Part shown: positions 18,186-29,413 of the stretch, one piece after another
Position numbering within the stretch: position 1 is the first letter of the stretch
How the letters are laid out: every line of letters begins with the position of its first letter
The notes under the pieces: model-generated
Database searches by the model: none
The model's input: the letters and a program-made list of their open reading frames with translations, nothing else
What the model was told of the DNA's origin: nothing
From: Thiosocius teredinicola
GTDB taxonomy: Bacteria > Pseudomonadota > Gammaproteobacteria > Chromatiales > Chromatiaceae
Assembly (NCBI RefSeq): GCF_002009425.1
Contig: NZ_CP019936.1
Location: 496,001-560,000 of the forward strand
Reading direction: 5' to 3'
Length of the DNA: 64,000 nucleotides
Translations under genes and position numbers: made by a program

Positions 18186-18349
18186 ATCCGTCTCCTCCAA
18201 ATACCCGTGCAAGCATAAACCGCTCGGCCGCTTCGGCCTTGGCAAAATACCCGGCAAATCGCGATGATGTGACCGCGCCGGTGGCCGATTGCCGGCTGAA
18301 TGCAAGAAACGGGTGGTTAGACGCTGTCGCGCCTTATAAATTCACTGCG

Positions 18350-19273
18350 ATGGACGGATTGATCGAACTCACCGATGCCGGCTGCGACGTGCAGTCTGCG
18401 GAGACCTTTCGGCGCATCGAGCGCGCAATAGCCTTTTTGCGCGACAACCGGCACGCGCAGCCGGCCTTGCCCGAATTGGCTGCGTATCTCGGATTGAGCG
18501 CCTCGCAGACCCAGCGCCTGTTCAGCCGGTGGGCCGGCATCAGCCCCAAACGCTTCTTACAGTTTCTGACCGTCGAATACGCAAAATCGCGTATGCGTGA
18601 GACCGGCGACCTGTTGGGTCTGGCCCTGGACAGCGGCCTGTCCGGACCTGGCCGCCTGCACGACCTGTTCGTCAACATGGAGGCGATGTCGCCGGGTGAA
18701 TTCAAGCAGGCTGCCGCCGGTGCCGACATCCGCTACGGTTTCGGCGATTCGCCGTTCGGCCAGGCCTTGGTGGCGTTCACCGCACGCGGCATCTGTCATC
18801 TGTCGTTCGTTGCCGAGGGCGATGAGTCGGCAGCGCTGCAGGCGTTGACGTCGACCTGGTCCCAGGCCAACTGGATTGAAGACACGTCGGCGAGCGGGCA
18901 ACTGCTGAAACGCATCTTTGCGGCCGGGCAACCACCGAACGGCAATTTATCGCTGTGGGTCAGCGGTACCAACTTCCAGATCCAGGTGTGGCGCGCGATG
19001 TTGCAGATTCCCTCGGCGGGCCTGCTCAGTTACCGGCAGCTTGCAGACCTGCTGGGCATGCCGAAAGCGGCGCGTGCTGTCGGCAGTGCCGTGGCGCGCA
19101 ACCCGGTAGCCTTTTTGATCCCCTGTCACCGCGTACTGCGAGAGAGCGGCGAGTTCGGCATCTACCACTGGGGCCGCGAGCGCAAGATGGCGATGTGCGG
19201 TTGGGAGTCTGCCGTCGAGGAACTAGCGATCAACGACCGCGGGCGTCCAGGCGGCGCAGGAACTCGCGCATGA
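18350..19273 (+). CDS. Ada-like AraC-type regulator fused to O6-methylguanine-DNA methyltransferase
   Basis: Repairs alkylated DNA by suicidal methyl transfer and may activate transcription. The N-terminal ~100 residues are an AraC-type helix-turn-helix (AAYLGLSASQTQRLFSRWAGISPKRF). The C-terminal domain has the acceptor motif PCHRVLRESG in FLIPCHRV and the YRQLADLLGMPKAARAVGSAVARN DNA-binding region (in part: KAARAVGSA). The N-terminal four-cysteine methylphosphotriester domain of E. coli Ada is absent. ATG 18350 gives 307 residues; a TTG at 18239 is possible. Its 3' end overlaps the RimK-like gene tail to tail by 44 bases. Confidence 0.85.
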   Translation: MDGLIELTDAGCDVQSAETFRRIERAIAFLRDNRHAQPALPELAAYLGLSASQTQRLFSRWAGISPKRFLQFLTVEYAKSRMRETGDLLGLALDSGLSGPGRLHDLFVNMEAMSPGEFKQAAAGADIRYGFGDSPFGQALVAFTARGICHLSFVAEGDESAALQALTSTWSQANWIEDTSASGQLLKRIFAAGQPPNGNLSLWVSGTNFQIQVWRAMLQIPSAGLLSYRQLADLLGMPKAARAVGSAVARNPVAFLIPCHRVLRESGEFGIYHWGRERKMAMCGWESAVEELAINDRGRPGGAGTRA

Positions 19274-20690
19274 TGCGCCGATAGAGTTCGATGCCGAGCA
19301 CCTTGTCCTCGACACCGGCGTCGATGTTGGGGTTGTCGTTGACCTCGATCACCATCACCTTGCGCCCGATCTGTTTCAGGTCGACGCCATACAGTCCATT
19401 GCCGATCGCAGCGGCCGCTTTGAGTGCCGTCTGCACGACGGCGTTCGGCAATTCGTCGAGCGGCAATGTGTCGAACCCACCTTCGCGCACCTTGCCTTTC
19501 GAATGGTCGGCGATTTGCCAGTGGCCGCGCGCCATATAGTAGCGACAGCCGTAGAGCACCTCGCCGTTGAGCAGGCCGATACGCCAGTCGAAATCGGTCG
19601 GGGTGTAGGCCTGCGCCAGGATCAGTTCCGAATCGCGAAACAGCTGCGCGGCCTTTTCCTCGAATGCGGTGCGGTCCGCCACCTTGAATACCCCGGTGGA
19701 GAAGGCGCCATCGGGGATCTTCAGCACCATGGGGTAGCCGAGCTGTTCTTCGGCACGATCGAGTTCGTCACGGCTGACCACAACGCTCGGCGGGATCGCC
19801 ACCTTTTGCCGTGCCAGCAGTTCGGCCAGATAGATCTTGTTGGTGCAACGCAGGATTGAATCGGGGTCGTCGATCACCACCAGCCCTTCCGATGCCGCAC
19901 GGTGAGCAAAGCGGTAGGTGTGATGGTTGACGTTGGTGGTCTCTCGGATCAGCAGCGCATCGAACTCGGCAATGCGGCCATAGTCGCGTGAGGTGATCAG
20001 TTCGGCGTCGATGCCCAGCGTTCGCGCGGCACGGATGAACTGCGCCAGCGCGCGCCGGTTGGACGGTGCCAGGGTTTCGTCCGGGTCGTACAAGATCGCC
20101 AGGTCGTAGCGCATGTTGCGCTTGCCGCGCACCGAGCGCCACGGGCGGCGCAGGTAGCCGGCCATCGCCTCGAAAAACAGGTCTTCCTGGTTGGCCTTCA
20201 AGGCCTTGAGCCCGACGCTGCGGATGCCTTTGATATGCCACACCTTGCCGCGCTTGAATTCGACCTTGATCAGTGGGCAGCGGAAGGTCTCGAACAGTGC
20301 CTTCGCCAGTTGGCGGAAACCTTTTACCTCGCATTCGCCGAAACAGATCAGCAACTCGAACCGCGTGACCTCGGTGGGTTGATCGCGGAACAGCTTGGCG
20401 ACGCGCTTGTCGAGATCGGCCAGTTCGCTGCCGTACAGAGCCTTGCGACTGAGATCCTGCAGTGTGCGGACGGCAGGGATCACCTTGTGCCCGCGCGCCT
20501 CAGCAAGCAGCGAGGCGTAGTACCCCGGGCTGTGGTATTCGGTGTCGCGGCACAGATTGAGAACGCGCAGATTTCGCTTGTTCGACCATGTCGGGTCGAC
20601 CAGGTAGTCGCGCACGGCCACGACCGGGTAGTCGGGAAAATCGTTTTTCCACTGACTCATTGCATCGACAAGAATGACATGGTCGCTCAT
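19230..20690 (-). CDS. RimK-like ATP-grasp ligase with RLAN N-terminal domain
   Basis: Predicted amide-bond ligase that activates a carboxylate with ATP. The 486 residues divide into an N-terminal RLAN-type domain (to ~170, with LVDAMSQW and LNLCRDTEYHSPGYYASLL), a preATP-grasp part, and an ATP-grasp domain from ~275 (TNKIYLAELLA, PMVLKIPDGAFSTGVF, and the metal-binding VIEVNDNPNID). The RimK relative adds glutamates to ribosomal protein S6, but this long form is a distinct family with no proven substrate. Its start overlaps the stop of the GNAT-C39 gene by 4 bases, so the two are translationally coupled and probably act on the same substrate. Confidence 0.82.
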   Translation of the reverse strand: MSDHVILVDAMSQWKNDFPDYPVVAVRDYLVDPTWSNKRNLRVLNLCRDTEYHSPGYYASLLAEARGHKVIPAVRTLQDLSRKALYGSELADLDKRVAKLFRDQPTEVTRFELLICFGECEVKGFRQLAKALFETFRCPLIKVEFKRGKVWHIKGIRSVGLKALKANQEDLFFEAMAGYLRRPWRSVRGKRNMRYDLAILYDPDETLAPSNRRALAQFIRAARTLGIDAELITSRDYGRIAEFDALLIRETTNVNHHTYRFAHRAASEGLVVIDDPDSILRCTNKIYLAELLARQKVAIPPSVVVSRDELDRAEEQLGYPMVLKIPDGAFSTGVFKVADRTAFEEKAAQLFRDSELILAQAYTPTDFDWRIGLLNGEVLYGCRYYMARGHWQIADHSKGKVREGGFDTLPLDELPNAVVQTALKAAAAIGNGLYGVDLKQIGRKVMVIEVNDNPNIDAGVEDKVLGIELYRRIMREFLRRLDARGR

Positions 20691-21790
20691 CGGGCATCCT
20701 CCGCCTTTATCAGTACCACTGCCTGCAGACCTTTCTTACCGTAGCGCGCCATCTGTGCGAATTGGCTGCGACCGATCGGCATGTTGATCGAATCAATCGA
20801 CGTCTCGCCGTCGTCGTAGTCGACGAACGGATCGTTGACATAGATGAAGTGTTCATCGAAACCGCTGACCACCACCCAGTGCGGCGATTTCTCGTTGTAG
20901 ATCTGCCACGAACTGATCAGCACGATCGGCACGGCGCCGTCGTCGAATGCCGCTTCGAGGGCGTCGGCACCCAGCACATCGAAATGCACCGGTATGCGAA
21001 ACTCGGCGATCTCGCGTTCCATGTCTTGCTGCACCAGTGTTATCACTTCCTTTTTTTCCGGGCTGCGGACGCTGTCGATCATCTGGATACCACGATCGTT
21101 AACCCATATCTCGACGCCGAAGCCGCGCTTGTGCGCGGCCAACGCCAAGCCGTAGGGGCCGCAGCCGCCCAACCCGGAGGTCATGAACACGGTGGTCGCT
21201 TCGCGCCACAGCTTGATCTCTTGGATGCGACTGGTCTGGGTCTCAGGGCGCAGCGTCTGCATGGCCATGAGCAGGCAGGCCGGGCCGCAGGTGAAGTCGA
21301 GCGTCTGTTCGTACCACGGCACGCGGTCAAGGCGCGGCTTGAGTCGCGCGTCGAGTGCCTTCTCGTAGCGCCACGCGTCCATGTGATCGGCGTAGTAGTC
21401 GGCAAAGCTGCCGAAACGGCGATAGCCGAGCGATTCGAACAGAGCGATCGATGCCGCGTTGTCCTTACGGATCTCCAGCCGCATCCAGGCGCGCTCTTCG
21501 CGCCACGCCTCGGCCTCGGCGCGCTCGACCATCTTGCTGGCGATGCCTTTGCCGCGCGCCTCGGGCGCGACGGCGATCGAATACAGCCGCGCGGTCGCCG
21601 TTCCACGGCTGAACAGCACGACCAGGCTGGCGACAATGGCGCTCTCGTGGTCGGCCACCAGCAAGGCGGCATGACCCTTGTTCAACAGGTGACGGAACTG
21701 GCGGCGGCTGATGCGATCGTCGTCGAAGCAGCGATTTTCGAGCGCGACCATCGCGTCGAGATCTTCAAGTGTTGCGGGGCGGATCGACAC
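20687..21790 (-). CDS. GNAT acetyltransferase fused to a C39-like cysteine peptidase
   Basis: Two domains in 367 residues. Residues ~1-150 are a GNAT N-acetyltransferase (acetyl-CoA loop APEARGKGIASKM; C-terminal NAASIALFESLGY). Residues ~155-367 are a papain-fold C39-like peptidase: oxyanion Gln and nucleophile Cys in EQTLDFTCGPACLLMA (Q162, C168), His in SPHWVVVSGF (H304) and Asp in YVNDPF (D320). No signal peptide and no ABC exporter, so it is not a bacteriocin processing protease. I chose the GTG at 21790 (MSIRPATLEDLDAM) as it opens the GNAT fold directly; a TTG at 21817 would add nine residues. It is coupled to the RimK-like ligase. Confidence 0.82.
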   Translation of the reverse strand: MSIRPATLEDLDAMVALENRCFDDDRISRRQFRHLLNKGHAALLVADHESAIVASLVVLFSRGTATARLYSIAVAPEARGKGIASKMVERAEAEAWREERAWMRLEIRKDNAASIALFESLGYRRFGSFADYYADHMDAWRYEKALDARLKPRLDRVPWYEQTLDFTCGPACLLMAMQTLRPETQTSRIQEIKLWREATTVFMTSGLGGCGPYGLALAAHKRGFGVEIWVNDRGIQMIDSVRSPEKKEVITLVQQDMEREIAEFRIPVHFDVLGADALEAAFDDGAVPIVLISSWQIYNEKSPHWVVVSGFDEHFIYVNDPFVDYDDGETSIDSINMPIGRSQFAQMARYGKKGLQAVVLIKAEDAR

Positions 21791-21953
21791 CGTTGGCAGC
21801 AGCTCCAGGCAGGGCAAAAAGTGAGCGCGTATTTACGGACAGAAATGGCAGGCACGCAAGTGAAATAATAGGACCATACAGGTATTCATTGAGCAAGCCG
21901 GGGTTTGGCCCTAAAGTCCGCGCTGCCCGCTGCGTGCAAGGAGCTCACCGCCT

Positions 21954-22736
21954 ATGTCGCAAAACCCCTCTCCGCGCTTGGCCCATGCGGTTTTGCTCGG
22001 TCATCGCATCAACGTTCGCCCACTGCTGCAGACGCCGCATCTGTCCGGAGCGCCGGTTGCCGTCGAAGTCAGCGGCGGCGGCCTGGCCGTCGTCTTGCGC
22101 TTCGGTGTAGTCGTGTTCTTCGACGTGTCGCCGATCGGGCAGACGCAATTCATCGACGCCTTGCGACCGTATGTGTCCGAGCCGATAGACCAGGGCGAGT
22201 TCGAGACCTTGGAGTTCACTGTCGAAAGCGGCAGCGAGTTGTTGCATGAAGGCGTGTTGTTGCTCGACAACGATGAACTGCCGACTTTGCAGGTGGTCGC
22301 CGATGTGCTGGCCAAGAGCGTTGTGCTCGACCACCACGAGCACCTGGTGGCGGCGACGTTCGATCGGGTTGAACCCCTGGCCGAACAATTGAGCAGCGGC
22401 AGCCATCGCATCCGTCAGTCACGCAGCCTGGTGGCGCATATCGGCGAGATGCTGCGGGTACAACACCGCATGGTCGGGCGTGCTGAGATCGGCGAGAAAC
22501 CCGACATCATCTGGGAGCATCCCGACCGTGAGCGTCTGTTCGTCCGCCTCGAGCAGGAGTTCGAGATCCGCGAGCGGCGCAGTGCGCTCGACCGCAAGCT
22601 CAATCTGATCAGCACCACCGCAGAAACCCTGCTCGATCTGGTGCAGGCGCAACGCACCCTGCGCGTCGAGTGGTATATCGTTATTTTGATCGTGGTAGAA
22701 ATCGGCCTGACACTTTACGAACTCTTTCTACACTAA
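21954..22736 (+). CDS. RMD1/YagE family protein (DUF155)
   Basis: A 260-residue protein with a soluble body and a single C-terminal membrane segment ([18 protein letters not shown]). This layout and motifs such as [21 protein letters not shown] and [20 protein letters not shown] (in part: [10 protein letters not shown]) are those of the DUF155/RMD1 family, whose yeast members affect meiotic division and mitochondrial translation; the bacterial role is unknown. Only 30 bp separate it from the CDGSH-Rieske-ThDP gene, so they may be co-transcribed. Confidence 0.8.
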
Positions 22737-22766
22737 GCGAAGATGCTTTGATCACGGAGGACAGTC

Positions 22767-25007
22767 ATGTCCAAACCGTATATCGCGGATACCAAGCCCA
22801 AAGCCGTTGAACTGAAGGCCGGCGAAACCGTCTGGTGGTGTTCATGCGGTCGTTCAAAGAACCAGCCGTTTTGCGATGGTTCGCACCAGGGGACCGATTT
22901 CACCCCGGTCAAGTTCACCGCCGACAAGGACGACAGCTACTACTTCTGCCAATGCAAGCAGACCGGCAGTCCGCCGCTGTGCGACGGTTCGCACAAGAAG
23001 ATCAGCGACGCCGAGCTGGAAGAGCAGGACGGCTTGAAGACCGTTTGGTACAAGGTGGCCGAGCGCGATGACCTGCGCGAAGGCGGCGTACTTGCCGTGC
23101 AGGCGGGCAGCCAGAGCATCGCGTTGACGCTGTTCAACGGCGAGCTGGGTGCGTTGGACAACGCCTGCCCACACCAGGGCGGCCCGCTGGGCGAGGGCAG
23201 CATCGAGTGCGAAGACGAAGGCGGAGACTGCTGGCTGCGCTGCCCTTGGCACGGGTGGGACTTTCATCCCCTGACCGGCAAATCGCCCGGCTCACATGAT
23301 GACGGCGTGCCGACCTTCCCGGTCGAGCAGCGCGACGACGGCATCTATGTTGCGGTCAAGGAGTCGGACGTACACCAGCGCACGGTGACCGATCTGATGG
23401 TGGAGACCATGGTGAACTGGGGTGTGACCCACGTGTTCGGCATGGTCGGCCACTCCAATCTCGGCCTGGCCGATGCGTTACGCCGCCAGGAAGGCAAAGG
23501 CCGGCTGCAATACATCGGCATACGCCACGAGGGTGCCGCGTCTTTTGCCGCGTCGGGCTACGCCAAACTCAGCGGCGTGCCCGCAGCGTGCATGAGCATC
23601 GCCGGCCCGGGTGCGACCAATATGCTGACCGGCCTGTGGGATGCCAAGGTCGACCGCGCACCTGTGTTGGCATTGACTGGGCAGGTCGATGCGCAGGTGC
23701 TCGGCCCCGGCGCATTCCAAGAGATCGATCTGGCCTCGGCCTATGCGCCGGCCGCCCGCTTCAGCCAGACCGTGATGTGTGACTCGCGACATGCCGAGTT
23801 GATGAACCTGGCGTGCAAGCACGCCATCGTGCAGCGTGACGTCGCCCACCTGATCTTTCCCGACGATGTGCAGACCCAGGCAGTGGACGAGGATGCCCCG
23901 GCGGGCAGCTCGCAAGGCCGGCTGGGCGATCGTGGCATGCTGCCGGCGACCGAAGGTCTGGCGCTCGCGCTCGACAAACTCAAGCAGGCAAAGCGGCCGG
24001 CGATCATTGTCGGCTACGGTGCCGTGGGACGGATGGAACCGATCCTGACGTTGGCGGAGAAGCTGCATGCGCCGGTGCTGACGACATTCAAGGCGAAAGG
24101 GCAGATAGCCGACGATCATCCGCTGGCTGCCGGTGTGCTCGGCCGCAGCGGTACGCCGGTGGCAAGCTGGTGCATGAACGAAAGCGACCTGTTGATCGTG
24201 TTCGGTGCGAGTTTTTCCAATCACACCGGCATTGCGGCCAACAAGCCGATCATTCAGGTCGACTTCGATCCGATGACGCTCGGCAAGTTTCATCCGGTCG
24301 AAATTCCCTTGTTGGGGGAAATCGGGTTGACTGCCGAATGGTTGTGGCGCGCCTTGCCGGAGGATACCGGCTCAGCGGACCAGCGCGACGACCTTGCCGA
24401 ACGCTGGCGTATCTGGCGCGACGAGAAGGCCGCGCGCCGCGAGCGTGAAAGCGATAAGGGGCTGAGTGCGGCATTGTTGTTCGAAGTGTTGTCGAAGGTG
24501 ACGCCGAGCGATGCCGTGTTGGCCGTGGATGTCGGCAACAACACCTATTCCTTCGGTCGCTATTTCGAGGCCCGGGGGCAACGCGTATTGATGTCCGGTT
24601 ACCTCGGGTCAATCGGGTTCGCCTTTCCGGCGGCGATGGGCGCCTGGGCGGCGACGCAGGCGCAGAGTACCTACCGCGGTCGCAAGGTGATCTCGATCAG
24701 CGGCGATGGCGGTTTCGGGCAGTACATGGCGGAGTTCACGACGGCCGTGAAATACGGCATGAACATCACCCATGTCCTGCTAAACAACGACGAGCTCGGA
24801 AAGATCAGCAAAGAGCAACGCGCCGGCCACTGGCCCGTCTGGCAGACAGGTCTGCGCAACCCGGATTTCGCCGCCTATGCGAAGAGCTGCGGTGGCCTCG
24901 GTATCCGCGTGAGCAGCAAAGATGAGTTGGAGGAGGCGCTGAAACGTGCCATCGCCTACGACGGGCCGGCACTGGTCGATGTGATCTCGGATCCGGAGCT
25001 CATCTGA
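22767..25007 (+). CDS. CDGSH-CDGSH-Rieske-ThDP enzyme fusion protein
   Basis: One 746-residue protein with four parts. Two CDGSH [2Fe-2S] sites have ligands C25, C27, C36, H40 and C61, C63, C72, H76. A Rieske [2Fe-2S] domain follows (CPHQGG from C134 and CPWHGW from C159, with H136 and H162). From ~205 to the end lies a complete acetolactate synthase/pyruvate oxidase-type ThDP enzyme: catalytic Glu E255 in [11 protein letters not shown], and the ThDP-magnesium motif from GDG (646-648) to NN (673-674). The ThDP part could decarboxylate a 2-oxo acid and pass electrons to the clusters instead of a flavin. No signal peptide. AGGA lies upstream of ATG 22767. The product and acceptor are unknown. 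Confidence 0.88.
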
Positions 25008-25240
25008 TGCGCTACGAGGAGTCGGTTGGACAAAGTGATGGCGAACTGCCGGTCTATTCGCAATCCGACGGTTTGCATTTCATGCTCAATTTCACCGTCG
25101 CATTGGCCTTGCTGATCGGCCTGGGCCTGTTGTACCTGGGCATGCGAGGGCGGGTGTTGTGGCTCAAGGTGTGGAGTGCCGGGCTGGTCGTGTTCAGCGT
25201 GGCTTATCTCGTCGCGGCGAGTACCGGCCATATCCGCTAG
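25007..25240 (+). CDS. Small two-segment membrane protein coupled to the fusion enzyme
   Basis: A 77-residue protein with a short hydrophilic N-terminus and two hydrophobic segments (FTVALALLIGLGLLYLGM and VWSAGLVVFSVAYLVAA). Its ATG overlaps the stop of the preceding gene by one base (TGATG), implying coupled translation. No family is recognised. It could anchor the ThDP/Fe-S enzyme at the membrane or near the respiratory chain, an inference from position only. Confidence 0.65.
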   Translation: MRYEESVGQSDGELPVYSQSDGLHFMLNFTVALALLIGLGLLYLGMRGRVLWLKVWSAGLVVFSVAYLVAASTGHIR

Positions 25241-25288: not shown

Positions 25289-27127
25289 TCAATGCCTGTG
25301 CTTGGCAATCCAGCGATGAATGGTGCTGCGGTGGATACCCAACTGGCGTGCCGCTGCGCTCACACAGCCGTCGCATTCGACCAATGCCTGTTCAATCGCA
25401 TCGCGCGTCTTGGTCTGCAAGGTGTTGTCCGCTTGCCGCTCTACCGCCTGTTGTTTGTGCCGGTTGCGAATCTCGGTCGGCAGGCGTTCGACGGCAATGA
25501 TGTCTCCCGGGCTGGAAAGCGCAATCAAGGTGCGTAGCACGCTCGTCAGCTGGCGCAGGTTGCCGGGCCAGTCGTAATCGCTCAGTGCCTGAACTGCTTC
25601 GTCATCGAGCGCGATTTCGCCCTTGCCGAGATCCCGCATCAACGATTCGATCAGGCGTGGGCGCCCGTTACGTTCACGCAGCGGTGGCAGGTTCAGCGTG
25701 AAATCCTGGATGCGGTAGAACAGGTCGGCGCGAAACTCGCCGGCCTCGACCATGGTCTGCAGATCACGGTTGGTGGCGCACACCAGTGCGAAATCGACGC
25801 TGACCGGTTGGCCGCCGCCAAGCGGGACGACATTCTTCTCTTGCAGCACGCGCAACAGCCGGGCCTGCAGGGCCAACGGCATGTCGCCGATCTCATCGAG
25901 AAACAGGATGCCGCCATCGGCTTCACGGATACGCCCCGGCATACCTTTGCGCCGTGCGTCGGTAAAGGCCCCGCCCTGGTAGCCGAACAGTTCCGATTCG
26001 ATCAGAGATTCAGGCAAGGCGGCGCAGTTCACCGCAACGAACGCGCCATGGCTGCGCGCGCTGACGGCGTGCAGTTGGCGTGCAAATACTTCCTTGCCGG
26101 TACCTGTTTCACCGTTGACCAAGACCGCAATGCCGGCGTCCAGCACGCGCTTGGCATCGGTGAGCTTGGCAGCGCAATCATCGTCGAAATAACAGGGCTC
26201 GCCGGTTGGTGCCTGCAGTGGCCTGATAGCCACCGGTGATTTGCGCTCTTGCTGCACAACGCCGTGCATCTGTTGGCCGTCGCGGCCGCGAATCACCTTC
26301 GGTTGATTGCTGGCCGGAAGTTGCAGCCATTGCTCGGCACTGGTGTCGAGAAGGTCCTGCCAATCCGCTCCGAGCAACTGCAGCGCGGCCCGGTTTGCGC
26401 CGACGATACGATCCTCGTCGAGCAGCAACACGCCCTCGCGATGGGTGTTCAGCAATTCGGGCGAAGGATGGAAACGCAACACGCCGTTGTTCTGCGCCTG
26501 TGTAAGGCTCAAGCGATGTTCGATGATCTGAATCGCAAGGCGCACCATGCCGAGCGCCTGTGCATGCAGGTTCTCCGAATCACCCGATACATCGAGTACG
26601 CCGAGCATCTCGCCACGCGGCGACAGAATGGGCGCGGCAGCGCAGCTCAAGATGCCGTTGGCTTCGAGGTAGTGTTGCCTGCCACGTACCGAGACGGCTT
26701 GTTGTTCTGCGAGCGCCGTGCCGATCGCGTTGGTGCCGCGTCCGTCTTCCGACCAGTACACGCCGGGCTGCAGCGCTACCTGTTGAGCGGTGCGCAAGAA
26801 GTTCAACGCGCCAACGGCATCCAGGATGAGACCATCGCGGTCGGCAAGCACAACAAGGCTGTCACCGTCCGAAACCAGTTCAGCCAGTGCATCCATCTCG
26901 GGTCGTACGATCCGACGAAGCTGACCACGCATCTCGCGGCGTTCATTCAGCAGCGACAAATCGACATGTTCTGCCGGCGGTGCGTCGGCGTTGTCCAGGC
27001 GACGCGCACAGCGCTGCCATGAACGCTCGATGACGTCCGGCACCAATCCATTAGGACTGCGTCCCTTGTCGAAAAACAGGCGGCGTGCGGCATCCGTGTC
27101 GGCCGGTATGGGACCGAAAGTCGGCAT
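25289..27127 (-). CDS. Sigma54-dependent activator, AcoR-like
   Basis: A 612-residue enhancer-binding protein. An N-terminal GAF sensor region (to ~205; WSEDGRGTNAIGTALAE is typical of AcoR-type activators) and a PAS-like part (225-300) precede the AAA+ domain: Walker A GETGTGKE (339-346), Walker B GGILFLDE (405-412) and R-finger region. A Fis-type helix-turn-helix ends the protein (AARQLGIHRSTIHRWI). The sigma54-contact loop reads GAFTDA (386-391) instead of GAFTGA. It is divergent from an aldehyde dehydrogenase, with tandem palindromes between, so it probably controls alcohol/aldehyde or acetoin catabolism. Confidence 0.88.
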   Translation of the reverse strand: MPTFGPIPADTDAARRLFFDKGRSPNGLVPDVIERSWQRCARRLDNADAPPAEHVDLSLLNERREMRGQLRRIVRPEMDALAELVSDGDSLVVLADRDGLILDAVGALNFLRTAQQVALQPGVYWSEDGRGTNAIGTALAEQQAVSVRGRQHYLEANGILSCAAAPILSPRGEMLGVLDVSGDSENLHAQALGMVRLAIQIIEHRLSLTQAQNNGVLRFHPSPELLNTHREGVLLLDEDRIVGANRAALQLLGADWQDLLDTSAEQWLQLPASNQPKVIRGRDGQQMHGVVQQERKSPVAIRPLQAPTGEPCYFDDDCAAKLTDAKRVLDAGIAVLVNGETGTGKEVFARQLHAVSARSHGAFVAVNCAALPESLIESELFGYQGGAFTDARRKGMPGRIREADGGILFLDEIGDMPLALQARLLRVLQEKNVVPLGGGQPVSVDFALVCATNRDLQTMVEAGEFRADLFYRIQDFTLNLPPLRERNGRPRLIESLMRDLGKGEIALDDEAVQALSDYDWPGNLRQLTSVLRTLIALSSPGDIIAVERLPTEIRNRHKQQAVERQADNTLQTKTRDAIEQALVECDGCVSAAARQLGIHRSTIHRWIAKHRH

Positions 27128-27151
27128 CGGTTATTCCTCCTGTCACTGTCG

Positions 27152-27170
27152 CCGTCGCTTTGCGCGACGG
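27152..27170. promoter_or_regulatory. Activator-site palindrome 1
   Basis: CCGTCGC-TTTGC-GCGACGG, a perfect 7-bp inverted repeat, begins 25 bp upstream of the activator start codon. It is the same length as the neighbouring palindrome and shares the GTCGC/GCGAC core, so both look like binding sites for the AcoR-like protein. Confidence 0.55.
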
Positions 27171-27175
27171 TCATG

Positions 27176-27194
27176 GTGTCGCATGTTGCGACAC
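27176..27194. promoter_or_regulatory. Activator-site palindrome 2
   Basis: GTGTCGCA-TGT-TGCGACAC, a perfect 8-bp inverted repeat of 19 bp in total. It is centred 24 bp from palindrome 1 and ~148 bp upstream of the -24/-12 promoter, a normal position for a sigma54 enhancer site. Confidence 0.65.
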
Positions 27195-27325
27195 TCGTAT
27201 TGTGCTTATCGATACGGCCAAGCGGATACCCGAGACTACTGCTGTCGACCACGTAGCGCAACACCACACTAAGCGGTTGTTTTGTTGACGATTGCGCTTT
27301 TTGTGTACTGCAGCATATGCCGTCG

Positions 27326-27340
27326 TGGCACGGTTTCTGC
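27326..27340 (+). promoter_or_regulatory. Sigma54 (-24/-12) promoter of the aldehyde dehydrogenase
   Basis: TGGCACG-GTTT-CTGC matches the TGGCACG-N4-TTGC consensus at all but one base, with GG and GC spaced correctly. It lies 56 bp upstream of the dehydrogenase start codon, downstream of the two palindromes. Confidence 0.75.
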
Positions 27341-27395
27341 GATTGCGGCAGGCGGTAGCCGATGGGCTGCCGGCTATCCGTAGGAGGAAAAAACT

Positions 27396-28922
27396 ATGTC
27401 AACCAACGTCGTCGAAGTCAGCACCTTGGGTGCCGAACTGCCGTTTAAGAAACGCTATCAGAATTTCATTAATGGGCAGTGGGTAGAACCGGAGAGTGGT
27501 GAATACTTCGAGAACATCTCGCCGGTCACCGGCCGCCCGATCTGCGAGGTACCGCGTTCCAACGCCGATGATGTCGAACGTGCACTCGATGCCGCGCATG
27601 CGGCCAAAGACGCGTGGGGCAAAAAGTCCCCGGCAGAACGCGCAGTGATCCTGAACCGCATTGCCGATCGCATCGAAGAAAACCTCGAACTGATTGCCAC
27701 CGCCGAAACCTGGGACAACGGTAAACCGATCCGCGAGACGCTCGCCGCGGATATCCCCCTGGCAATCGATCACTTCCGTTACTTCGCTGCCTGCGTGCGC
27801 GCTGAAGAAGGCGGTATCTCCGAGATCGACCACGAGACCTATGCGTATCACTTCAAGGAGCCGTTGGGCGTGGTCGGTCAGATCATCCCGTGGAACTTCC
27901 CGATCCTGATGGCGACCTGGAAGCTGGCGCCGGCGTTGGCCGCCGGCAACTGCGTGGTATTGAAACCGGCGGAACAAACCCCGGCGTCGATCCTGGTTGT
28001 GATGGAGCTCATCGCCGACCTGTTGCCGCCCGGCGTGGTCAACGTGGTGAACGGCTTCGGTGTCGAGGCCGGCAAGCCGCTTGCCTCGTCGCCGCGTATC
28101 GCCAAGGTTGCGTTCACCGGTGAAACCACCACCGGCCGCTTGATCATGCAGTACGCATCGCAGAACCTGATCCCGGTAACGCTGGAGCTGGGCGGCAAGT
28201 CGCCGAACATCTTCTTCCCGGACGTGTGCGAGAAAGACGACAGCTTCTTCGACAAAGCCATCGAGGGCTTCGTGTTGTTTGCATTGAACCAGGGCGAAGT
28301 GTGCACCTGCCCGTCGCGCGCGTTGATCCACGAGTCGATCTATGACCAGTTCATGGAGCGTGCATTGCAGCGCGTTGCAGCTATCAAGCAGGGCAACCCG
28401 CTGGATAAGAGCACGATGATCGGTGCACAGGCATCGCAGGAGCAGATGGACAAGATCCTGTCTTATATCGATCTCGGTCGTCAGGAAGGTGCAGAGTGCC
28501 TGGCAGGTGGCGAGCGCAACCAGCTCGAAGGCCAACTGGAAGACGGTTATTACATCAAGCCGACCGTATTCAAAGGCAACAACAAGATGCGGATCTTCCA
28601 GGAAGAGATCTTCGGCCCCGTGGTATCGGTGACCACCTTCAAGGACTACGATGAAGCGCTCGAGATCGCCAACGACACCCTATACGGTCTTGGCGCAGGC
28701 GTCTGGACGCGCGATTCGAATACCGCGTTCCGCGCAGGTCGTGCGATCCAGGCAGGACGCGTATGGACCAATTGCTACCACGCCTACCCGGCACACGCAG
28801 CATTCGGTGGTTACAAGCAATCGGGCATCGGTCGTGAAAATCACAAGATGATGCTCGACCACTACCAGCAAACCAAAAACCTGTTGGTGAGCTACAGCGA
28901 ATCACCGCTGGGTTTCTTCTGA
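27396..28922 (+). CDS. NAD-dependent aldehyde dehydrogenase (ExaC/AcoD type)
   Basis: Oxidises an aldehyde, probably acetaldehyde, to the acid. The 508 residues contain N166 (PWNFP), K190 (VLKPAEQTP), the general base E264 in LELGGKSPN, and the nucleophile C303 in NQGEVCTCP. The CTC variant and the length match the ExaC/AcoD group used in ethanol and acetoin degradation. TAGGAGGAAA precedes the ATG. It is transcribed from a sigma54 promoter under the divergent activator, and is followed by its usual DUF779 partner after a hairpin. Confidence 0.9.
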
Positions 28923-28950
28923 GTCGATTGAAGCATAGTCGATAGTGGCT

Positions 28951-28978
28951 GCCCCTCTTCGTTGCGGCGAAGAGGGGC
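28951..28978 (+). terminator. Hairpin between aldehyde dehydrogenase and DUF779 genes
   Basis: GCCCCTCTTCG and its exact complement (11 bp) with a six-base loop, followed by TATTTGTT. A strong terminator or partial attenuator that would reduce expression of the DUF779 gene. Confidence 0.7.
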
Positions 28979-29005
28979 TATTTGTTCTGATCGATGGAGG
29001 TTGTC

Positions 29006-29413
29006 ATGGATACGCGACGCGTAACCGCGACTGATGCGGCCCTGGCGTTGATCGAGAAGTTGAAGAAGCGCCACGGTGATTTGATGTTTCACCAGTCAGG
29101 CGGTTGTTGCGACGGCAGTGCGCCGATGTGTTACCAGCGTGGCGAACTGCAGGTGGGCGACCAGGACGTGCTGCTCGGTGAGATCGGCGATACGCCTTTC
29201 TACATGAGTGCATCACAGTTCGACTACTGGAAGCACACCCAGTTGATCATCGATGTGGTCGACGGACGTGGCGGGATGTTTTCGCTCGAAGGGCCAGAAG
29301 GCAAACGCTTTCTCACGCGATCCCGCTTGTTCACCGACGAAGAATGGCAACAAATCAAGGGCGACGATGGACCTTCGTTCACTGCCGTTGCGAGTCGCCC
29401 TTTGCCGACCTAA
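29006..29413 (+). CDS. DUF779 protein, partner of the aldehyde dehydrogenase
   Basis: A 135-residue protein with the family motif HQSGGCCDGSAPMC (three Cys) near residue 31. DUF779 genes characteristically follow ExaC-type aldehyde dehydrogenases; the role is unproven, with metal binding or redox protection of the dehydrogenase as guesses. The start at 29006 has GGAGG five bases upstream; an ATG at 28994 overlaps that ribosome site. Confidence 0.82.
   Translation: MDTRRVTATDAALALIEKLKKRHGDLMFHQSGGCCDGSAPMCYQRGELQVGDQDVLLGEIGDTPFYMSASQFDYWKHTQLIIDVVDGRGGMFSLEGPEGKRFLTRSRLFTDEEWQQIKGDDGPSFTAVASRPLPT

Follow-up and report, generated by a model that had tools for sequence, protein, structure and literature searches.

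The locus considered here raises the question of what a ThDP enzyme does with two CDGSH sites and a Rieske domain in the same polypeptide. It lies in the window, by which we mean the whole analysed stretch of 64,000 nucleotides. A preliminary description made from this DNA proposed a flavin-free, iron-sulfur-wired enzyme or one gated by redox, possibly docked to the membrane through a 77-residue protein encoded next to it. The protein, its relatives and their gene neighborhoods were analyzed computationally, and the outcome is a graded answer in which a Rieske-ThDP core, rather than the CDGSH pair, takes the central place.

Results

The enzyme is encoded by one open reading frame on the + strand (22767..25007, stop included; ORF call, translation and Pfam), which starts with ATG and gives a 746-residue protein. 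A GGAGG resembling a ribosome-binding site was read 6 bases 5' of the ATG (22756..22760, +). Pfam found zf-CDGSH (two stretches), Rieske, and TPP_enzyme N, M, and C above cut-off, in the order CDGSH-CDGSH-Rieske-ThDP enzyme, so that all the domains first described do stand in one polypeptide. CDGSH motif 1 (aa 25-40; 22839..22886, +) holds C25/C27/C36/H40, and motif 2 (aa 61-76; 22947..22994, +), which follows 20 residues past motif 1, holds C61/C63/C72/H76; both were located by translation and Pfam. The pair is thus of the type 6 tandem kind, with two motifs about 20 residues apart and every ligand present, and the solved structure closest to this part is 3tbn. The Rieske [2Fe-2S] domain covers about aa 94-200 (23046..23366, +; Pfam Rieske 94-172) and carries the CxH and CxxH ligands C134, H136, C159, and H162. 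Among its solved matches (22 rows) are electron-carrying ferredoxins that serve carbazole, naphthalene, biphenyl, and toluene oxygenases; bc1 proteins are absent from these 22 rows. The enzyme part consists, by Pfam, of TPP_enzyme_N (aa 206-323; 23382..23735, +), with H229, E255, and F317; TPP_enzyme_M (aa 400-524; 23964..24338, +), the FAD-binding domain of pyruvate oxidase and AHAS; and TPP_enzyme_C (aa 588-739; 24528..24983, +), with GDG 646-648, NN 673-674, and K679. The ligands of both CDGSH sites and of the Rieske site, and the ThDP residues E255, G646-D647-G648, and N673-N674, were all found at the positions given in the preliminary description.

An assembly error, which the same description had named as a danger to its claim, is excluded. 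The window is part of a single-contig genome of 4.79 Mb, and a search of 56 relatives recovered the same fusion in 9/9 genomes of the genus. In total, 12 of the 56 relatives, the nine of the genus included, hold the protein at E <= 1e-120; all 12 matches start at residue 1 or 2, and the CDGSH part is therefore covered. Two of the nine stop early (G002 at residue 552 and G005 at residue 723), presumably at contig ends. The tandem-CDGSH fusion was also present at 20 loci in named assemblies, which may overlap with the genus genomes. The CDGSH-Rieske-ThDP fusion is neither a chance arrangement nor a chimera.

At least 565 relatives came up when the GTDB contig collection was scanned, and the 80 most similar to the query were fetched; since the loci were chosen in this way, the sample favors full-length relatives and might miss a Rieske-free form. 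A Rieske motif and a ThDP enzyme were in one open frame in all of these best 80. Tandem CDGSH motifs stood in the same place as in the window protein in 20/80 loci; two further loci (L049 and L065) had CDGSH motifs about 145 residues apart, and the motif pattern was absent from the other 58. In a Pfam set of 62 aligned members (61 of the 80 loci plus the window, with L049 and L065 trimmed), Rieske and all three TPP domains were found in 62/62 and CDGSH in 20. The proteins of L049 (1920-4565) and L065 (7410-10079) read CDGSH-Fer4_19-CDGSH-Rieske-TPP by Pfam, each in a single polypeptide; these two carry more Fe-S than the window protein. Rieske-ThDP proteins were also found on five plasmids, four haloarchaeal and one from Mycobacteroides abscessus, at 53-61% identity, and are annotated there only as 'thiamine pyrophosphate-binding protein'. 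Among the 15 matches listed from 1567 plasmid records, the next after these five was at 37% and had no Rieske part, a drop which disfavors a common Rieske-free form.

Column counts and a quick tree were made from 85 rows, with the truncated L027 left out of both. The Rieske ligands C134/H136/C159/H162 were kept in 85/85 rows. In the tree, made without bootstrap, the tandem-CDGSH rows (20, window included) fell on one side of one branch (SH-aLRT 92), and the CDGSH-Fer4_19-CDGSH pair was on another (SH-aLRT 70). The family is patchy, being present in 9/397 sampled genomes of the phylum, and ranges over Proteobacteria, Acidobacteriota, and haloarchaeal plasmids. An N-terminal query against 274 genomes of the class gave 10 matches; the whole query was matched in the window's genome alone, the Rieske part alone in three, and the CDGSH part alone in six. 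Of the fusion first described, therefore, the Rieske part is general (all 80 loci and five plasmids), whereas the CDGSH pair is a clade-specific addition. Judged from these sequences, the N-terminal Rieske domain is an obligatory part of this ThDP enzyme family; the Rieske-ThDP core is the real discovery, and the CDGSH pair is its local extension.

The relation to known enzymes was assessed by profile and by fold. NCBIfam gave 58 profile matches, the best 25 of which were examined against curated cut-offs, and none of these 25 reached its cut-off. The top profile among them was pyruvate oxidase PRK08611 (394.6 bits vs a cut-off of 742); PRK09124 scored 315.5 vs 792, and the AHAS profile TIGR00118 scored 296 vs 538, below membership. 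The nearest solved sequence was E. coli PoxB (3eya, E 3.5e-72). An AlphaFold2 model (pLDDT 89.5, pTM 0.78) also matched PoxB 3eya best, with a TM-score of 0.92 by target length at 29% identity, followed by C. glutamicum PQO, AHAS, and Lactobacillus POX and then by 2-hydroxyacyl-CoA lyases and an ancestral acetolactate synthase (0.83-0.88). The loop 311-318, which holds F317, was the sole stretch modeled below pLDDT 50. The ThDP fold and the catalytic residues (E, GDG, N) of PoxB and the pyruvate oxidases are present. By sequence comparison, PoxB-type pyruvate oxidases are the nearest known enzymes, yet by the 25 NCBIfam profiles examined the protein is not a member of a known family.

In the 85 rows, E255 (the catalytic Glu), F317 (PoxB F112), and the GDG Asp647 are invariant, and G646 (81 rows), N673 (78), and N674 (80) are nearly so. 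The residues H229, N231, R460, S461, Y594, F596, Q652, Y653, K679, K682, and W692 are kept in 85/85 rows and occur in none of six references (PoxB, IlvI, Gcl, IlvB, Oxc, and a Metabacillus pyruvate oxidase), so that the active site of the family differs from all six reference enzymes compared. K679 occupies the position of PoxB F465 and is Lys in 85/85 rows; the aromatic residue is thus missing there, and F465, like its Lactobacillus counterpart F479, is one that we take to help relay electrons between ThDP and FAD. H229 stands at the Asp of the PoxB GDS, presumably the position of Asp28 in pyruvate decarboxylase. Given these two exchanges and the family-only invariant residues, the family is probably unlike pyruvate oxidase in its substrate or in the way the substrate is handled; a 2-oxo acid is a plausible substrate.

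By Pfam, the protein has the middle domain that accommodates FAD in pyruvate oxidase and AHAS, and PoxB binds FAD. The AHAS residues for FAD, as named in a section of PMC5727371, were read by motif, its numbering not fitting E. coli IlvI; one Arg and one Thr of these are retained in the family while others differ, and because the FAD-binding PoxB also changes several, these residues cannot decide FAD binding. The term 'flavin-free' used in the preliminary description is accordingly not supported as it was stated, the nearest enzymes by profile and fold being FAD enzymes.

Past PoxB position 527, PoxB has 45 residues, which we take to be its membrane-binding tail, and the family has five in 85/85 rows; a C-terminal membrane peptide of the PoxB/PQO kind is missing from every one of these rows. 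Membrane contact had instead been proposed through the 77-residue protein. Its ORF (25007..25240, +; ORF call) begins on the last base of the enzyme's stop codon, as first reported, and encodes two hydrophobic stretches. The protein was found in 7/9 genus genomes (64-75% identity in the six others) and had no match in the remaining two; being kept in this way, the ORF is a real gene. By coordinates, its gene directly adjoins that of the enzyme in 6/9 genus genomes, and in G005 it is on another contig. Across 81 neighborhoods, window included, it was beside the enzyme in five, all from close kin. With this narrow spread, docking through the 77-residue protein was rejected as a general mechanism, although it could hold for this genus, where the neighbor is genuine; the protein may be a genus-level anchor and is no feature of the family.

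Gene neighborhoods were counted over the ORFs within 7 kb of the enzyme gene. A glutamate-synthase-like gene was within 7 kb in 26/80 loci (same strand in 24), which, by a rough estimate, is far above the expectation for a few-copy gene in a genome of several Mb. A Rieske motif was found in 20 of the 26 products and tandem CDGSH in two (L012 and L013, both of the CDGSH clade); four had neither, three of them short pieces and the fourth, L060, full-length without an Fe-S motif. By Pfam, the L045 representative is Rieske+Glu_synthase and the L012 representative is zf-CDGSH+Glu_synthase, an architecture that PMC3174974 defines as a type 5 CISD. A DUF5996-like gene was in 25/80 loci, a count which merges clusters of 14 and 12 loci and is Pfam-confirmed, through a representative, for the 14-locus cluster alone. 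In 9/80 loci there was a gene for a Rieske-bearing, ferric-reductase-like membrane protein, and five of these loci also had the glutamate-synthase-like gene. In these five (L032, L051, L068, L069, and L084), the ThDP enzyme, the glutamate-synthase-like enzyme, and the ferric-reductase-like membrane protein form a Rieske trio. Neither a glutamate-synthase-like nor a DUF5996-like gene was present in 43/80 loci, partly as a result of short contigs; where 4 kb of sequence flanked the gene on each side (49 loci), one or the other was present in 22.

The glutamate-synthase-like enzyme is not an obligatory partner. Three Glu_synthase proteins are encoded in the window's genome, none with Rieske or CDGSH (the 1650-aa one being judged by length and the absence of a CDGSH match), and 11/20 CDGSH-clade genomes had no close match at E <= 1e-100; with the L060 protein lacking Fe-S, this candidate role was rejected. 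The matches in the other nine clade genomes include Rieske-bearing (L137 and L138) as well as CDGSH-bearing forms. In a tree of CDGSH parts (30 sequences, 84 columns, too short to settle origin), the glutamate-synthase-fused CDGSH adjoined the ThDP-fused CDGSH of L012/L013 with modest support (85/74), and the ThDP-fused copies were not one group (three changes).

Other neighbors were recorded as well. At L012:3990-11768, a run of DsrE-like, GST, cytochrome b561, lone tandem CDGSH, pirin, and methyltransferase genes leads up to the CDGSH-Rieske-ThDP and CDGSH-glutamate-synthase genes. Pirin, DsrE, and disulfide-reductase genes are found next to L012 and to certain of the haloarchaeal plasmid genes; neither the pirin nor the DsrE of L012 had a match among the other neighborhood ORFs, and a stress function was kept only as a lead. 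A cation/proton antiporter cluster is near the ThDP gene in 10/80 loci, e.g. L026:4207-5496 (one member Pfam-checked), and antiporter genes are also beside L086 and L088. In the window, a DUF155 (RMND1/Sif2 family) protein is encoded upstream on the same strand as the enzyme (21954-22736, +; Pfam) and was not among the recurrent neighbor clusters. Positions 18239-21817 hold a gene for an AraC-type HTH and O6-methylguanine methyltransferase protein and a RimK-like ATP-grasp/GNAT-C39-like pair; the methyltransferase recurs in 6/80 loci. A sigma-54 activator with a GAF domain (-), followed by aldehyde dehydrogenase and DUF779 genes (+), occupies 25289-29413.

Discussion

On balance, we consider it somewhat probable that the protein is a ThDP-dependent oxidoreductase of PoxB-type fold whose electrons leave through the fused [2Fe-2S] centers. 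A ThDP carbanion would form on a 2-oxo acid or related substrate, and the resulting two-carbon (or larger) enamine would be oxidized, its electrons exiting singly to the Rieske cluster, either directly or by way of a bound FAD. In the tandem-CDGSH clade, the electrons would pass from the Rieske cluster through the two CDGSH clusters to an outside partner; in other lineages, this role may fall to the glutamate-synthase-like enzyme encoded nearby, with its Rieske or CDGSH, or to a heme b/Rieske membrane protein. In PoxB, the membrane tail hands electrons to quinone; the Fe-S route would take its place. The iron-sulfur-wired part of the original proposal remains the best reading because Rieske and ThDP go together in every relative examined and further Fe-S modules sit on the same core. 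An electron wire also fits better than a passive scaffold, given an invariant carrier, added carriers, and nearby redox genes with the same modules; the Lys at the relay Phe of PoxB, the lack of an Fe-S-bearing glutamate-synthase-like protein in the window's genome, and the low model confidence in loop 311-318 of the active site weaken it. A bolder version, which we hold as doubtful, is that of an unnamed widespread family of flavin-free ThDP oxidoreductases that lost the PoxB-type FAD, reached PFOR-like chemistry independently, and added modules per partner. Single electrons would then pass from a ThDP radical to the built-in Rieske center, and tandem CDGSH or CDGSH-[4Fe-4S]-CDGSH would have been plugged on to suit the partners, the glutamate-synthase-like enzyme with the same module included.

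The main rival to an electron wire is redox gating of a non-redox ThDP carboligase or decarboxylase, in which the Rieske and CDGSH domains would sense oxidants or cluster state and switch the enzyme or its assembly. AHAS, glyoxylate carboligase, and acyl-CoA lyases do have the same fold, CDGSH proteins can transfer or lose clusters, and a few relatives are near the pirin, DsrE, and disulfide-reductase genes. A link of CDGSH proteins to iron and ROS metabolism is described in part of PMC5859297. What stays constant, however, is a Rieske domain of the ferredoxin-like sort, which normally acts as a carrier, and other carriers including Fer4_19 have been added to it. The redox neighbors, with their identical kinds of Fe-S module, point to an electron path in common; we regard gating as unlikely, though as the alternative to be taken most seriously.

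The protein might also be a conventional FAD-dependent pyruvate oxidase or quinone reductase, with FADH2 reoxidized by quinone or oxygen and the Fe-S domains serving to anchor, stabilize, or scaffold. PRK08611 as the best profile, PoxB as the best fold, and the F317 match to PoxB F112 in all rows speak for such an enzyme, but 394.6 bits is far under the cut-off, the PoxB-like tail is missing, and Rieske ligands invariant across several phyla and haloarchaea are hard to explain for a passive scaffold, which makes this quite improbable. That the Fe-S chain instead feeds electrons into the ThDP site, e.g. for reductive carboxylation or reductive ligation, seems very improbable: the neighboring glutamate-synthase-like and heme b/Rieske proteins could supply electrons as well as accept them, but the redox members of this ThDP fold known to us oxidize their substrate, and Rieske ferredoxins are not known to reach a potential low enough for carboxylation of acetyl-CoA.

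The export of electrons through the fused clusters, if true, would mean that ThDP enzymes have been wired to iron-sulfur clusters in a second way, with the pyruvate oxidase fold as the base and not pyruvate:ferredoxin oxidoreductase, and would place CDGSH and Rieske fusions in a concrete enzymatic setting where an electron-transfer role can be tested. This may be a little-studied enzyme family that passes electrons via iron-sulfur clusters. As one-electron carriers can couple to electrodes, biocatalysis would also profit from a ThDP enzyme that looks aerobic and has clusters fused to it. No paper on a Rieske-ThDP or CDGSH-Rieske-ThDP fusion was found in the open-access (CC-licensed PMC) literature, the scope of the search, which left subscription papers outside. 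The available portion of PMC5859297 lists Rieske, Glu_synthase, and Fer4_19 among the partners with which CDGSH occurs and contains neither 'thiamine' nor 'TPP'; in that of PMC3174974, neither Rieske nor thiamine appears.

Compared with known systems, the family shares its ThDP fold and ThDP residues with PoxB-type pyruvate:quinone oxidoreductases (E. coli PoxB and C. glutamicum PQO) and differs in its fused [2Fe-2S] domains, the missing C-terminal tail, scores below family cut-offs, the Lys at F465, and the His at the Asp of GDS. Pyruvate oxidases of the PRK08611 kind and Lactobacillus POX give the highest NCBIfam score and a shared fold, but that score is 394.6 bits vs 742, and the active site differs as it does from PoxB. 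In pyruvate:ferredoxin oxidoreductase, which belongs to another ThDP-enzyme family, is CoA-dependent, and has [4Fe-4S] clusters, the ThDP radical gives single electrons to Fe-S clusters; the likeness is an analogy of working only, with no homology found or claimed and no PFOR domains found by Pfam in the window protein. The Rieske ferredoxins of ring-hydroxylating oxygenases have the same CxH...CxxH ligands and fold family, and unlike them the domain here is fused to a ThDP enzyme, with no oxygenase partner seen. In the sections of PMC3174974 (Lin 2011) that define the CISD types, tandem CDGSH motifs about 20 residues apart stand alone in type 6 and are joined to a glutamate synthase domain in type 5. 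The window pair resembles both in its spacing of about 20 residues, with 3tbn as the best solved match; by Pfam, the protein has ThDP domains and no glutamate synthase domain, and the pair is joined to Rieske-ThDP.
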